Shown here in pieces: positions 7,684-31,206 of a DNA stretch of 64,000 nucleotides. The notes below the pieces were generated by a model. It had not been told where the DNA came from and made no database searches. It was given only the letters and a program-made list of their open reading frames with translations. Numbering within the stretch: position 1 is the stretch's first letter; every line of letters starts with the position of its first letter. Source of the DNA: Desulfomonile tiedjei DSM 6799 (GTDB lineage Bacteria; Desulfobacterota; Desulfomonilia; Desulfomonilales; Desulfomonilaceae); contig NC_018025.1 in the NCBI RefSeq assembly GCF_000266945.1, forward strand, positions 1,860,001 through 1,924,000, written 5' to 3'. The position numbers and the translations under genes were made by a program.

Positions 7684-9597
7684 TCAGTCATCATCGTCAT
7701 CTTCCGCCACTTGCTGCCATCGTCTGGCTTCGAAAATGAGCCTTCCCAAGGGCTCGGCAAAAGTCATCAGACCGGCAAGAATCAGCGGAATGAAGAAATA
7801 CCACGAAATCGTAACATCTGAATACAAAGAAATCTGGATAGGCTCTTTCATGGGAGGACCATTGATACCGCTTCCTCCTGTGGCATGAACGAGCAACTTG
7901 TATGTTCCCGCTTTCTTGATTTTGAAATAGCTGCTGAAATTGGACGATCCCTCGGACCAGGATCCGTCTGAGTCAGTCCCATAGTAGTAACTGGCGTCCC
8001 CTGAGAATTCGGAGACTACGCTTTCTCCAGCGTTAACAACCGCGAAATCCAGAGCAAGCCAGGAATTCTTCAAAGGGGCATGGCCTGCCAGTCGCAAGAT
8101 AGTTCCATCCTGTTTGATCGCAAAAGGTTGAGTCAGGTGTTCTTTGGAATACTGATCGTACGTTATTTTCTCGTGGAGCACCGCAGTCTTTTTCTCACTC
8201 GTGCAACTGTAGGTCAACAGAAGCACGTTAAGGATCAGGAAAACACATGCAATCTTCCAGAGACCTACCAGCGATGCATAGGGAATGTAAGGCTGGCAGG
8301 AGTACACTCCACCTCGGGAGGGAATCCTCCGCCCTTTCGGTACTGCGGCCTGCATTTCTTCAGGACTGACGTACCTCCCTCGGAACAGCTCGATTTCTCT
8401 ACCGGTTTTTTCGCGGTCTATGCACTCGGGTGGCTTTACCAGATGCACATAATGGGTGGATTCTCCGACAACGGCTCGCCACGGGAGCGCTCCGTCCACC
8501 CATTTCAGGGACTGAGTGCCTTGCTCGTAGAATTTGAAGGTATCCTGACCGACTCTGACTTTCTGCTTGGGTTTAATTCCGGGAGGAATTGCCACGCTAC
8601 CGTGAAACGGTGAACTCAACGTAAAATGGCCCCGTTCCTCCGAAAGCCATAGATAGCCCGCATCGGGATTGTACAGGACGTATTCGAAAGTACGATAATG
8701 TTTTGTGCCTTCTTGCTCGTCATAGAGCAGTCTGCCCATGACCTCGTACTGTACTTTGTCAAAAGTAAGAGGTGTTCCCACGGGAAAAGTAAAGAGTGGC
8801 TCAGGATCTTCATTTTTTCCCACCACTTTGGCTTGCGCTTCGGTGAGATCCAGCCCGGCTCCGCATGCCTCACAAACCACCATTTCTGTAGTAGAGACTC
8901 GCGCACCTTCGTACGGCTTTCCGCAGGATGGGCATCGAATAATCAGGCCGACTCTGCTTTCAGGAGCAGTCTTGTCTTCAGGGCTCGACTTGGCTGATTT
9001 CAGCTCGAGGATGCGTCCGATGAAAGCTCTGGGAGCACCTGTTCCGGCATCATATTCCAGGCCGAAAGAAAAGCTGCCGTCCTGTCCTGCTCCATCGGCA
9101 TAACGATAAGTTTCACCGATCTCCACCTGAAAGGGAATCTCTCCTTCTCCGCCGATACACCGTGCTTCCCCGATTTCTTCCACTACCCCGATCTTGGGGC
9201 CCAGGGCGATTTCCATTCCGGGCTTTAGATCGTCAAAAGGAGGAACAGGTCCGGTGAGAGTAAATGGTTTTTCCAGAAAGAGCTCGCCTTCATCCTCGCT
9301 TAGCCACAGGATCGACCCGTCCTGCATCTCAACGTACCACTCGTTCCAGGTTCCAGTGTCGTGGGCGTATACGAGCCGGCCGAGTACCCGAAAGGATTCC
9401 TTCTTGAGTTTCCCCGATGCACCCACCTTGAATCGGGCTGAGAGAGGCAGATCCAACGATTTGTTACCTGCGCGCAAAGCCGATTCGTCATCCCAGTAGA
9501 TCGCGGTCCGGCAATAATCGCAGATCTTCATCAGGATTCCGGGATTCGTAACCAGGTGTGCGGCTCCGCACGATGGGCAGTGAAATCGTCTTTCCAT
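7684..9597 (-). CDS. Zinc-ribbon protein with two DUF4178 domains and membrane anchors
   Basis: This 637-residue protein starts with a zinc ribbon (CPSCG and CDYC, residues 8-31) and a DUF4178 unit (about 50-190, with WYVEMQDGSILWLSEDEGE). It then repeats the plan with a second ribbon (CPSCG and CEACG, about 220-246) and a second DUF4178 (about 265-410, with EYVLYNPDAGYLWLSEERG). A membrane segment follows near 450 (ACVFLILNVLLLTY), then a beta-rich region and a last membrane segment near 605-625. The internal duplication is plain in the sequence. It leads the cluster with DUF350 and the spermidine-synthase-like gene. The function of DUF4178 is unknown, and the C-terminus is Asp-rich. Confidence 0.85.
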   Translation of the reverse strand: MERRFHCPSCGAAHLVTNPGILMKICDYCRTAIYWDDESALRAGNKSLDLPLSARFKVGASGKLKKESFRVLGRLVYAHDTGTWNEWYVEMQDGSILWLSEDEGELFLEKPFTLTGPVPPFDDLKPGMEIALGPKIGVVEEIGEARCIGGEGEIPFQVEIGETYRYADGAGQDGSFSFGLEYDAGTGAPRAFIGRILELKSAKSSPEDKTAPESRVGLIIRCPSCGKPYEGARVSTTEMVVCEACGAGLDLTEAQAKVVGKNEDPEPLFTFPVGTPLTFDKVQYEVMGRLLYDEQEGTKHYRTFEYVLYNPDAGYLWLSEERGHFTLSSPFHGSVAIPPGIKPKQKVRVGQDTFKFYEQGTQSLKWVDGALPWRAVVGESTHYVHLVKPPECIDREKTGREIELFRGRYVSPEEMQAAVPKGRRIPSRGGVYSCQPYIPYASLVGLWKIACVFLILNVLLLTYSCTSEKKTAVLHEKITYDQYSKEHLTQPFAIKQDGTILRLAGHAPLKNSWLALDFAVVNAGESVVSEFSGDASYYYGTDSDGSWSEGSSNFSSYFKIKKAGTYKLLVHATGGSGINGPPMKEPIQISLYSDVTISWYFFIPLILAGLMTFAEPLGRLIFEARRWQQVAEDDDDD

Positions 9598-10621: not shown

Positions 10622-11254
10622 ATGGGTGAAGTACAAACGGTTGATTGCCGCGGTCTCTCATGTCCTCAACCCGTGTTGGAGACAAGGAAGGCTCTTGAAG
10701 AATCGGTTGCCTCCCAACTGAGAATTCTCGTGGACAATATTACGTCCCGTGAAAACGTGAAGAGATTTGCCTCGAGCCAGGGTTTGGGCGTTCAGGTACG
10801 TGAGATGGGGGCTGACGAATTCGAGTTACTGTTGGAACGAGTTCAGGATACGGCATCTCCCGAAAATAAGCCCACGGAATCGCAATCTTCTCCAGTGGAG
10901 CAAGAATCCCTGAACGGCAAGAACGTAGTGTACGTGGGCAACGACTGCATGGGCCGCGGCGACGATGAACTCGGTCGAAAGCTCATTCGCGGATTCCTGC
11001 GCACGTTGATCGATGTCGCACCTGTTCCATGGAAAATCATCTTCATTAATGCGGGAGTGAAACTGACGACACTGGACGAAGAGGCTGTTGAAGCTATTTC
11101 CGTCCTGGCAGACAGAGGCGTTGAGATTCTCTCTTGCGGGACTTGTCTCGAACACTTCGGCCTTGTGGATCGACTCAAAGTGGGACGCGTTACCAACATG
11201 TTCGAGGTAATCGAATCTCTCAACGGCGCGACAAAGGTGATTTCTCCGGATTGA
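10622..11254 (+). CDS. yedF: Selenium-metabolism-associated protein YedF (TusA + DsrE-like)
   Basis: This 210-residue protein has an N-terminal TusA-like domain with the CPQP motif (Cys14) in DCRGLSCPQPVLETR, a linker near 75-100, and a C-terminal DsrE-like domain with ILSCGTCLEHFG. This two-domain form is the YedF-like protein found in genomes that use selenium. It is thought to handle persulfide or selenide sulfur-group transfer, although the exact reaction is not established. AGGAGG precedes the ATG. A selenoprotein gene in this same window (29339-29566) agrees with a selenium trait. Confidence 0.9.
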   Translation: MGEVQTVDCRGLSCPQPVLETRKALEESVASQLRILVDNITSRENVKRFASSQGLGVQVREMGADEFELLLERVQDTASPENKPTESQSSPVEQESLNGKNVVYVGNDCMGRGDDELGRKLIRGFLRTLIDVAPVPWKIIFINAGVKLTTLDEEAVEAISVLADRGVEILSCGTCLEHFGLVDRLKVGRVTNMFEVIESLNGATKVISPD

Positions 11255-28317: not shown

Positions 28318-29109
28318 TTACTCGATCCCGGAGCGGGGCTGTTGAGGACCTTTGAGTTCCAGGAACAGGAGCGTTCCTCCGACGGCAGCAGCAGGAATGA
28401 AGAACAGGTTAATAAACGGAATAGAAGCTGTTATCAGATTTCCCAGGCCGAATCCGATGATAGTGCCAAGGCGCGACCTGAAAAACTTCTTCTTCGCACT
28501 CCAGGAGAAACGGTATCTGTCCATCGGATATCCGAGATATTCGTAGGCCAGCATGTACGCGGAAAGCAGCCATCCACACGCGGAAAAGAGAAATCCGCCA
28601 ACTCCGGGAATGAGGAGAAAGAACAGGCAAGCGACGAGCAGAATGAGATAAAGCGCCAGTAGTTTAAAGGAGTGGGCGATAGCTCGACTTGAATCTTTGA
28701 TGAGGCCGATTACGGAAAATGGAGTATCGGTATAATTGCCGGTGACGAGCTCCTCTGTCTTCTGAGAAAGAAGATCGTTGAAGGGTGCCGAAAGAGCCGA
28801 GGCTACACGTGCGAAAAAGAAGAAAAAGAGCACTGTCAATACAATGGTAAGAACAAAAACTACCACGTAATAGAGCGCACGCCAGTACCATTCTTCGGAG
28901 GGAAGAACCCCGAGCATTCTGCCGAGTCCAAAATAGAGAAGCACGTATGCAATGCCCATAATGATGAGGCTAATGACCAGAGGAGCTGCCGCGTACTTCC
29001 ACAGCTGCCGATTCCTTTTCAAAAATAGCGCTCCTCTCAGCACATAGAGCGGTGCCGGAGTGAATCTATTTGCCAGACTTTCTGATGGTTGAATAGTCTC
29101 TCGGCTCAT
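28318..29109 (-). CDS. EI24/CysZ-like membrane protein
   Basis: This 263-residue protein has about five to six hydrophobic segments, beginning with ApLYVLRGALFLKRNRQLW and the helix that follows. The layout and the GRMLGVLP and ALSAPFNDLLSQKTEE segments match the EI24 domain (Pfam EI24, related to CysZ). CysZ imports sulfate, but distant EI24 proteins have no proven substrate. The C-terminus ends in a charged tail. A family F repeat follows the stop and a family E repeat precedes the start. Confidence 0.8.
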   Translation of the reverse strand: MSRETIQPSESLANRFTPAPLYVLRGALFLKRNRQLWKYAAAPLVISLIIMGIAYVLLYFGLGRMLGVLPSEEWYWRALYYVVVFVLTIVLTVLFFFFFARVASALSAPFNDLLSQKTEELVTGNYTDTPFSVIGLIKDSSRAIAHSFKLLALYLILLVACLFFLLIPGVGGFLFSACGWLLSAYMLAYEYLGYPMDRYRFSWSAKKKFFRSRLGTIIGFGLGNLITASIPFINLFFIPAAAVGGTLLFLELKGPQQPRSGIE

Positions 29110-29123
29110 TTAGGCTTCATCTC

Positions 29124-29257
29124 ATACCGATTCGCTTTTTTCATAGTCTGGGAGGCTGGAGGTATCCTTCGCTCCGGAGGACGCAAAGCCGTCTAATCAC
29201 TCCGCTCCAGGATACTCCAGCCTTCGCTATCATATGTGCATAACTGTGAAATCGTAT
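29124..29257. repeat. Dispersed repeat family E, copy 3
   Basis: Starts ATACCGATTCGC and ends GTGAAATCGTAT (inverted end). It has the same body as the copies at 6903 and 44919 and lies between the EI24 gene and the selenoprotein gene. Confidence 0.75.
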
Positions 29258-29288
29258 CAAATGGCGGTTTGCATTTCAATAATGTGCA

Positions 29289-29320
29289 GGGAGGAACTTC
29301 TCAAACGAAACCTCTCCCCC
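29289..29320 (-). terminator. Hairpin-D-like terminator after the selenoprotein gene
   Basis: GGGAGGAACTTCTC and GAAACCTCTCCCCC form an imperfect stem 19 bases past the stop codon. The sequence resembles hairpin D of family F. Confidence 0.45.
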
Positions 29321-29338
29321 AATTTGTATCTTGAAGTA

Positions 29339-29566
29339 TCATATCGTTTTCTTGATGAGTTCCACTATTTCATTGTCCTCTGGAAATCGATGTCTTTCGT
29401 GTTTCGAGAAAATCGTTTTCCCCTTGTACTCCACATCGAAGATTCCCCCGCTGGATCTGATCAACTCCGAGGTAATACCGAGTTTTTCTTCCAGATCCTT
29501 CGCCAGACCGGCGGCTCGCGGCTGGTAGTTTCACATACCGCAATATGTTATCTTGCATTTCTCCAT
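29339..29566 (-). CDS. SelW-like (Rdx family) selenoprotein with in-frame UGA
   Basis: This 75-residue protein is missed by standard gene calling because codon 12 is TGA (29533-29531). Read as selenocysteine, the frame is continuous from ATG at 29566 to TGA at 29341-29339. It gives MEKCKITYCGMUNYQPRAAG, then segments LAKDLEEKLGI, SSGGIFDVEYKGKTIFSKH and RFPEDNEIVELIKKTI. This is the SelT/SelW/SelH-type thioredoxin-like redox protein with the CxxU motif at residues 9-12. All the conserved blocks of the family (GGxFEV, SK, FPE) follow after the UGA. GGAGG lies 12 bases upstream of the ATG, a rather long spacing. A redox role is inferred. Confidence 0.88.
29505..29533 (-). promoter_or_regulatory. 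Candidate bacterial SECIS element after the UGA codon
   Basis: Just after the UGA the mRNA can fold as a short stem GCC/GGC whose apical loop contains GGUCU (29509-29505), 21 bases past the UGA. E. coli fdhF presents a GGUCU loop at a similar distance (about 18 bases) for SelB. Outer pairing (CC..GG) is weak, so the structure should be checked by folding. Confidence 0.55.
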
Positions 29567-29712
29567 TTTATGTACTGGCCTCCTTCTTGTTAAACGGTCA
29601 CGCTAGGTTCCGAGAGTTCATCTTCGGAACCTTCCCCGCAACTATATGATCGGGTACCGATAGAAAATATTCTGTCATCTTTTATAGAAACCAATTCACG
29701 TTAGCAACCGGT

Positions 29713-31206
29713 TTATCGATAATCGAGCACATCCAATTTTAAGTTGCCCACCATTTTCAGTATAGCTTGCGCACTTTCACTATGATTTCGAGAGGCAATC
29801 TTAATGTGCGTGGGATCTGCCGGAACTTGGTTGAGTGTGGGGTCCACCGCGAGCCAGCCGTCAACGAATGATTCAGCCCAGGCATGATAGAGAAATCCGA
29901 CGTCTTCAGAGTAGACGATACCTGTTGCGATGCGAGTCGGTATGTGCAGAGACCGGGCCAGTGCTGCGTATAGATTTGCATGAGCCTGGCATTCGCCTTC
30001 CCGGCTTCTCAGCACAGCAATTGCCGTGAAGGAATCCTGCATCTTACTTTCAATATTTTCTGCAGTCCATTTCACCAGTTTACGAATCTTTTCGTACTGA
30101 GTATCGGATCGTTCGACTATTTCCCTGGCTTGAGAGACAATTTCCGGATGATCTGACTGAATGACCATGGTGGGATTGAGATCGTCCGGTGAAAAGGAGT
30201 CTGCAGCATGGCGCTTGTCCCTGGTGCGATCCGGTTCCACATGGACGGTAATCTCGAATCCGCTCCTACCGGTATCGCTGTCAGGCACAATTATATCCTG
30301 CCGATGATCCCGAGCGAGAAGATTGCTATCAATACCGGATATACCCGCTTTCAGGTAACGCAGTTTTCCTGCGTGGGGAATAGTCTTAGCGACCTTTATC
30401 CGGCTCACGTCCAGGATCAGGTCCTTCCCTGAAGTTTTTTTTTCCAGGAATTTCCGAGCGGAGGACTCATCTTCGAGCACCGTGATGAGCGATCCGTCTA
30501 CTCCTTTTTCCAACACCGTCAATCCCTTGTTGTTCAACCAGGACAGGACAAGACCTCGTCCACAGTGATTCTTTATCTTCCAAACGGCACCATTCGGTCC
30601 AGGATCTCCAGGAACCGTATTTATCTCCTGCTGGACAGTCTCAAGCTCCTGCCCCTCGGCATTGAAAATGCCGAACGAGTACTTTTCGCCGTCCCTGAGA
30701 CCTCTTATGATAGGCATGAGGGAAATTGCGCTAGAGTGATGGATTTTTCCTTCAACCTTATATGCACGGCTGTGTTTTTCTCCATCCACCTCGATATCCA
30801 CGCGGAATTCTTTACCTTCAAGCTTGCCGATCATGTGCATGTCCTTACCATTTATGCGCACCTTGGAATCGATGGACAGAAGCGCAAGATCGGGCATGAC
30901 CCGCACTTTTTCATTCAGGACGATTTCGTTTGTCTTTTTCAGTGCAGTAAGCCGCGTGACCGAATCGCTATGAATGATGAAATTCTTACCATCCGGCTCG
31001 ATCTTGAAATGGCTGTATCCGATTCTATCTTCTTTGAAATACGTGCCGTACCAGGCTTCTTTGAAAGGTATTTTATCGAGACTTTTGCATCCCTGTACAA
31101 GAAGTGTTTTATCCCCGGGAACATCCGAAGGCGAATTCACCATGCAGGATGAAATCATGAGTGCAGCAGCGAAGATGAATACCGGTAAGACTCGTTGTCG
31201 TATCAT
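29713..31206 (-). CDS. Transglutaminase-like lipoprotein
   Basis: This 497-residue protein begins with a lipoprotein signal peptide (MIRQRVLPVF, hydrophobic core, then ISSC as the lipobox, Cys21). After a long N-terminal region, a transglutaminase-like cysteine protease domain lies near residues 375-475. The triad is Cys in REGECQAHANLY, His in FLYHAWAESFVDGW and Asp in AVDPTLNQ. Such exported proteins act on peptides or cross-links at the cell surface. The substrate is unknown. There is no partner gene on the same strand. Confidence 0.85.
   Translation of the reverse strand: MIRQRVLPVFIFAAALMISSCMVNSPSDVPGDKTLLVQGCKSLDKIPFKEAWYGTYFKEDRIGYSHFKIEPDGKNFIIHSDSVTRLTALKKTNEIVLNEKVRVMPDLALLSIDSKVRINGKDMHMIGKLEGKEFRVDIEVDGEKHSRAYKVEGKIHHSSAISLMPIIRGLRDGEKYSFGIFNAEGQELETVQQEINTVPGDPGPNGAVWKIKNHCGRGLVLSWLNNKGLTVLEKGVDGSLITVLEDESSARKFLEKKTSGKDLILDVSRIKVAKTIPHAGKLRYLKAGISGIDSNLLARDHRQDIIVPDSDTGRSGFEITVHVEPDRTRDKRHAADSFSPDDLNPTMVIQSDHPEIVSQAREIVERSDTQYEKIRKLVKWTAENIESKMQDSFTAIAVLRSREGECQAHANLYAALARSLHIPTRIATGIVYSEDVGFLYHAWAESFVDGWLAVDPTLNQVPADPTHIKIASRNHSESAQAILKMVGNLKLDVLDYR

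Follow-up and report, generated by a model that had tools for sequence, protein, structure and literature searches.

Does a short minus-strand frame that looks broken under the standard code encode a selenoprotein, its in-frame TGA being decoded as selenocysteine? The frame lies in a window of 64,000 nucleotides, the whole stretch of DNA that was analyzed, within the 6,500,104-base chromosome of Desulfomonile tiedjei DSM 6799. A first-pass annotation of this window had proposed a gene of 75 codons that is continuous only if this TGA is read through as selenocysteine, and translation confirmed both its coordinates and its motif YCGMUNYQPRA (Table 1). On the minus strand, an ATG and 10 further codons precede the TGA of codon 12, which is followed by 63 codons and a TGA stop at 29341-29339. 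With the internal TGA translated as U, the product reads MEKCKITYCGMUNYQPRAAGLAKDLEEKLGITSELIRSSGGIFDVEYKGKTIFSKHERHRFPEDNEIVELIKKTI. Considering the open frame, the match to the Rdx family, the conservation of the UGA, a covarying hairpin and the whole selenocysteine machinery, we consider it highly likely that the locus is a bona fide SelW-like selenoprotein gene.

Table 1. Features of the selW-like locus, its surroundings in the window and the related tRNA-Cys/selB pair elsewhere in the genome
Feature	Position	Strand	Remarks
selW-like gene	29339..29566	-	75 codons and a TGA stop; member of the Rdx family; residues 9-12 form CxxU
Codon 12 (in-frame TGA), predicted to encode selenocysteine	29531..29533	-	translation; TGA in 93/99 aligned homologous frames
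Shine-Dalgarno-like AAGGAGG, 5' of the ATG	29579..29585	-	long 12-nt spacing; sequence, by eye
Apical hairpin of the predicted bacterial SECIS, CGCC-GGUCU-GGCG	29501..29513	-	core pairs kept and covarying in homologues
Possible lower SECIS helix, CCAG 29525-29522 / CUGG 29494-29491	29491..29525	-	weakly conserved in relatives
Transglutaminase-like lipoprotein, upstream neighbour	29713..31206	-	adjacent to the selW-like gene at 12 loci of the class
CysZ-like membrane protein, downstream neighbour	28318..29109	-	kept in 6 loci of the class
YedF, selenium-metabolism-associated sulfurtransferase-like protein	10622..11254	+	TIGR03527 221.7 bits, cut-off 110; next to proC
tRNA-Cys(GCA) and second selB (selC*/selB* kind)	G000:C1:3562734-3564838 (L003 1283-3387)		outside the window

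Profile searches with the TGA translated as U revealed that the readthrough protein matches the Pfam family Rdx (PF10262) with 69 bits against a cut-off of 22.6 (E 4e-19). The match covers residues 4-73 of 75 and thus spans the UGA, in agreement with the earlier claim that the other blocks of the Rdx family follow 3' of this codon. The protein also exceeds the cut-offs of TIGR02174 (54.8 against 34.2 bits) and NF041051 (90.5 against 88 bits), and a genome-wide Rdx search recovers the same locus with "1 TGA" inside. The CxxU motif, C9-G-M-U12, comes after the first strand of the fold; Cys9 and residue 12 are invariant in 38 aligned sequences. Alternatively, the true gene content might consist of two separate short genes, or of an unrelated open reading frame in a different frame or on the opposite strand. 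Standard-code frames are indeed present, one encoding 62 residues (29370-29558, minus strand) and the other 119 residues (29234-29593, plus strand). However, the 62-residue frame yields no match in Pfam, even with the threshold relaxed to E 1, against 4e-19 for the readthrough frame, and the piece after the UGA taken by itself misses the first strand of the fold as well as Cys9, so that a gene content of this kind appears scarcely credible.

For the full-length readthrough product, an AlphaFold model built from the alignment of 38 sequences gave a mean pLDDT of 92.2. It shows the order strand-helix-strand-strand-strand-helix, with a short helical turn after strand 4, and places the CxxU motif on the loop after strand 1. 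The top 21 matches among PDB structures are bacterial SelW-related proteins with TM scores of 0.8-0.9, followed by human MIEN1 and mouse SelW; the leading solved ones are 2OBK, 2FA8, 2P0G, 2OJL, 2OKA and 3DEX. A sequence search of the PDB returned the same set of proteins. By both profile match and predicted model, the full-length product is an Rdx/SelW-family thioredoxin-like protein.

Sequence analysis of the homologues revealed that codon 12 is TGA in 93 of 99 aligned homologous frames, TGT (Cys) in four and GGA (Gly) in two, the last two being one locus fetched twice, a tandem copy in the genome G353. At this position the aligned homologues thus encode Sec (UGA) or Cys, bar that single degenerate Gly copy, and the tally agrees with the reported scarcity of Cys forms of SelW-like selenoproteins among users of selenocysteine (Zhang et al. 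2006, PMC1794560). Exactly one in-frame TGA is found in all 16 Rdx matches of a sample of the class and in 53 of the 58 matches of a phylum sample of 395 genomes. Furthermore, TGA occupies this codon in all 34 additional loci on GTDB contigs, whose sources include Desulfobacterota, Acidobacteriota, Gemmatimonadetes and Planctomycetota. In comparisons with eight relatives from the family, differences 3' of the UGA are rarest at codon position 2 and commonest at position 3 (for example, 20, 9 and 35 at the three positions). No copy was detectable in the sole same-genus genome searched, which is 86% complete, and the plasmid collection yielded three distant Rdx matches only.

The locus might instead be a pseudogene or the product of a sequencing error, in which an old Cys-type Rdx gene had its TGT or TGC codon turned into a TGA that is not read through. 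A change from TGT to TGA takes one substitution, and a degenerate tandem copy, that with GGA in G353, is known from another genome. However, the recurrence of TGA at codon 12 in homologous frames from many phyla argues against a pseudogene, as do the coding constraint that persists 3' of the TGA and the covarying hairpin described below; we hold such an origin to be very improbable.

Two arrangements in other genomes were observed along the way. On contig 134 of G353 (8334-9113, L116), two SelW-like genes stand in tandem, the first with UGA and the second with GGA and a damaged hairpin; in the second, a duplicate, the redox residue is gone. In G113 (L114) and G145 (L112), each of which has two selB genes, a Cys-type (TGT) Rdx protein is encoded in place of the Sec form.

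The GGUCU loop to which the first-pass annotation had pointed does start 21 nucleotides past the UGA (29509-29505), and it is closed by a stem of CGCC (29513-29510) and GGCG (29504-29501). Its four core GC pairs and the loop sequence are as in E. coli fdhF; the fifth pair is C-A in this copy, against C-G in 87 of 89 sequences. Folding of this sequence alone gave z-scores of -0.14 to +0.7, similar to those of shuffled sequences, a search of Rfam found no match at the hairpin, and the four core pairs in this copy alone have P = 0.14 under synonymous resampling. A scan of the window returned 41 TGA-readthrough frames with some hairpin of this type, the selW-like frame among them; the hairpin criterion by itself is not selective. 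Since neither single-sequence folding nor Rfam gives support, the case for a SECIS element is built on the homologues.

Among 89 distinct homologues, all four core pairs are kept in 81, against a mean of 10.9 and a maximum of 23 in 500 synonymous codon resamplings that preserve the protein sequence. After thinning to less than 80% identity, they are kept in 48 of 53 sequences (null mean 6.6, maximum 13). The core pairs form in 92-100% of the 89 sequences, with paired changes: the wobble pair 20-32 occurs as CG, TA, GC, AT and TG, pair 21-31 as GC and TA, and pair 23-29 as CG, TA, GC and AT. The loop GU is present in 71 sequences, against 10.8 expected, and little of the pairing survives when the 3' side of the stem is shifted by 1-3 bases. 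The copies with Cys or Gly, which are few and distant, all lack at least one of the four core pairs. On this comparative evidence the hairpin is strongly conserved, with paired substitutions across the 89 sequences; the proposed SECIS is thus borne out by covariation and left without backing by the fold of the single sequence.

The genome has the complete machinery for selenocysteine that the annotation had named. Genome profile searches identified one selA (599 bits), selB at 5619382-5621259 (404.5 bits), selD (367.6 bits) and a tRNA-Sec gene (selC) with anticodon UCA at 3200382-3200475 (69.5 bits), which ARAGORN calls tRNA-SeC tca. The frame of selD itself contains one in-frame TGA (L149 2670-2672; G000:C1 about 3873169), so SelD is probably a selenoprotein here as well. 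We considered the co-occurrence of SelB as a further line of evidence and dropped it: SelB is found in 48 of the 52 genomes with the UGA gene and in 353 of the 395 genomes of the phylum, and therefore its presence does not discriminate within the phylum.

The surroundings of the gene tell less. YedF is encoded in the same window, as had been noted earlier, and its value as support is small: it lies 18 kb from the selW-like gene, which gives no case for an operon. The conserved neighbours were tried as a clue to function and set aside, given that the transglutaminase-like and CysZ-like genes are kept in close relatives only, a pattern that points to vertical inheritance rather than function. 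Between the selW-like and CysZ-like genes there is a palindromic REP-like element of about 76 bases (window 29150-29225), with at least 40 genome copies at 91-100% identity among the matches listed and 189 candidates.

These observations, combined with established knowledge of SelB, suggest how codon 12 might be decoded. SelB, together with GTP and Sec-tRNASec(UCA), would bind the CGCC-GGUCU-GGCG hairpin. Selenocysteine would then be delivered at the UGA, and translation would continue to the stop codon at the end of the frame. In the resulting thioredoxin-like protein of 75 residues, Cys9-Gly-Met-Sec12 would act as a thiol/selenol redox centre, a role proposed for Cys9 and Sec12 by analogy with the family. 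The most probable activity of this SelW-like protein would be a reduction linked to thiols or to glutathione; both the CxxU motif and a SelW-glutathione interaction have been noted before (PMC1088965). When Sec-tRNA is lacking, translation would end after 11 residues.

The genome has, besides this machinery, a second selB (3562952-3564838; 291 bits, above the cut-off), which begins about 220 bases past the start of a tRNA-Cys(GCA) gene directly upstream and in which the final winged-helix segment is still recognizable. This tRNA-Cys, 92 nucleotides in length, scores as tRNA-Sec (51.9 bits) and has an 8-bp acceptor stem, U73 and a T stem of 4 bp with a bulged A. Such tRNA-Cys genes (selC*) with selB* have been described in Syntrophobacterales and Desulfobacterales (PMC7609411), and tRNASec-like tRNA-Cys has been reported to insert Cys at Sec UGA codons (PMC11415595; Vargas-Rodriguez et al. 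2018, by its title as cited in PMC8762117). Given that the genome has an arrangement reported to recode UGA as Cys, codon 12 might be read in two ways, as Sec by SelB and tRNASec and as Cys by SelB* and tRNA-Cys(GCA) under shortage of selenium. The genus-mate G011 has the same pair of tRNA-Cys and second selB (L147 574-665), in keeping with such dual decoding. However, nothing ties the selC*/selB* pair to the selW-like gene, and G011 is the only other family genome, among those searched, in which a second selB passes the cut-off. Most of the remaining family genomes searched have the same UGA gene with just one selB above that score, so the ordinary SelB suffices there. We regard dual decoding as unlikely, though it deserves more weight than the other alternatives. 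If it occurred, the organism would make selenium and sulfur forms of SelW according to its selenium supply.

In a more distant member of the class, G032, a tRNA-SeC (UCA) gene is located just 5' of a partial-scoring second selB (contig 135, L148 261-352); this tRNA-SeC may represent either a normal selC or a modified form of the selC* arrangement.

In summary, decoding of codon 12 as selenocysteine by the ordinary SelB is the reading that we favour, and a gene that looks broken under the standard code is confirmed as real. The work also yields a SECIS alignment for bacterial SelW-like genes in which the element is widely shared and covaries. The locus would make a clean reporter, since the gene is short, has a single UGA and lies in a genome that combines the Sec machinery with tRNASec-like Cys machinery; the identity of residue 12 across selenium supplies would reveal whether Cys recoding occurs in nature. 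Its novelty had been overstated in the first-pass annotation: SelW-like selenoproteins are a known bacterial family, for which the curated NCBI model NF041051 scores this protein over its cut-off. The gene is almost certainly a real but ordinary new example of them.

Reports of SelW-like selenoproteins in bacteria date from 2005-06 and extend to Deltaproteobacteria; the examples include Geobacter sulfurreducens, Desulfotalea psychrophila and Alkaliphilus (Zhang et al. 2005, PMC1088965; Zhang et al. 2006, PMC1794560). The present gene has in common with them the Rdx family, the CxxU motif, the occurrence in anaerobic Deltaproteobacteria, a UGA with a bacterial SECIS just 3' of it whose small apical loop contains G, and the scarcity of Cys forms among Sec users. 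Only the organism differs, apart from the fifth stem pair, which is missing here and conserved in nearly all of the relatives collected. In Epsilonproteobacteria, SelW genes have been missed in annotation (Campylobacter SelW, PMC4607533), and full-length translation past the UGA has been demonstrated for C. jejuni SelW by Ribo-seq and proteomics (PMC11955535). Campylobacter SelW belongs to a different phylum and its readthrough is experimental, whereas the copy here is known from sequence. The solved SelW-related proteins 2FA8, 2OBK, 2P0G, 2OJL and 3DEX share the fold of the model (TM about 0.8-0.9), and mouse SelW (2NPB) has the same fold as well, with a TM score of 0.70; identity to the 75-residue protein is 21-31% in this set, and the SECIS element of eukaryotic SelW genes is of a different type than the bacterial one (PMC1088965). 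As for the second selB and tRNA-Cys(GCA) of this genome, they share the features described for the selC*/tRNA-ReC and selB* system, so far as Mukai 2017 and Vargas-Rodriguez 2018 are represented in PMC7609411 and PMC8762117; the pair is encoded elsewhere in the genome than selW, to which its link is hypothetical.
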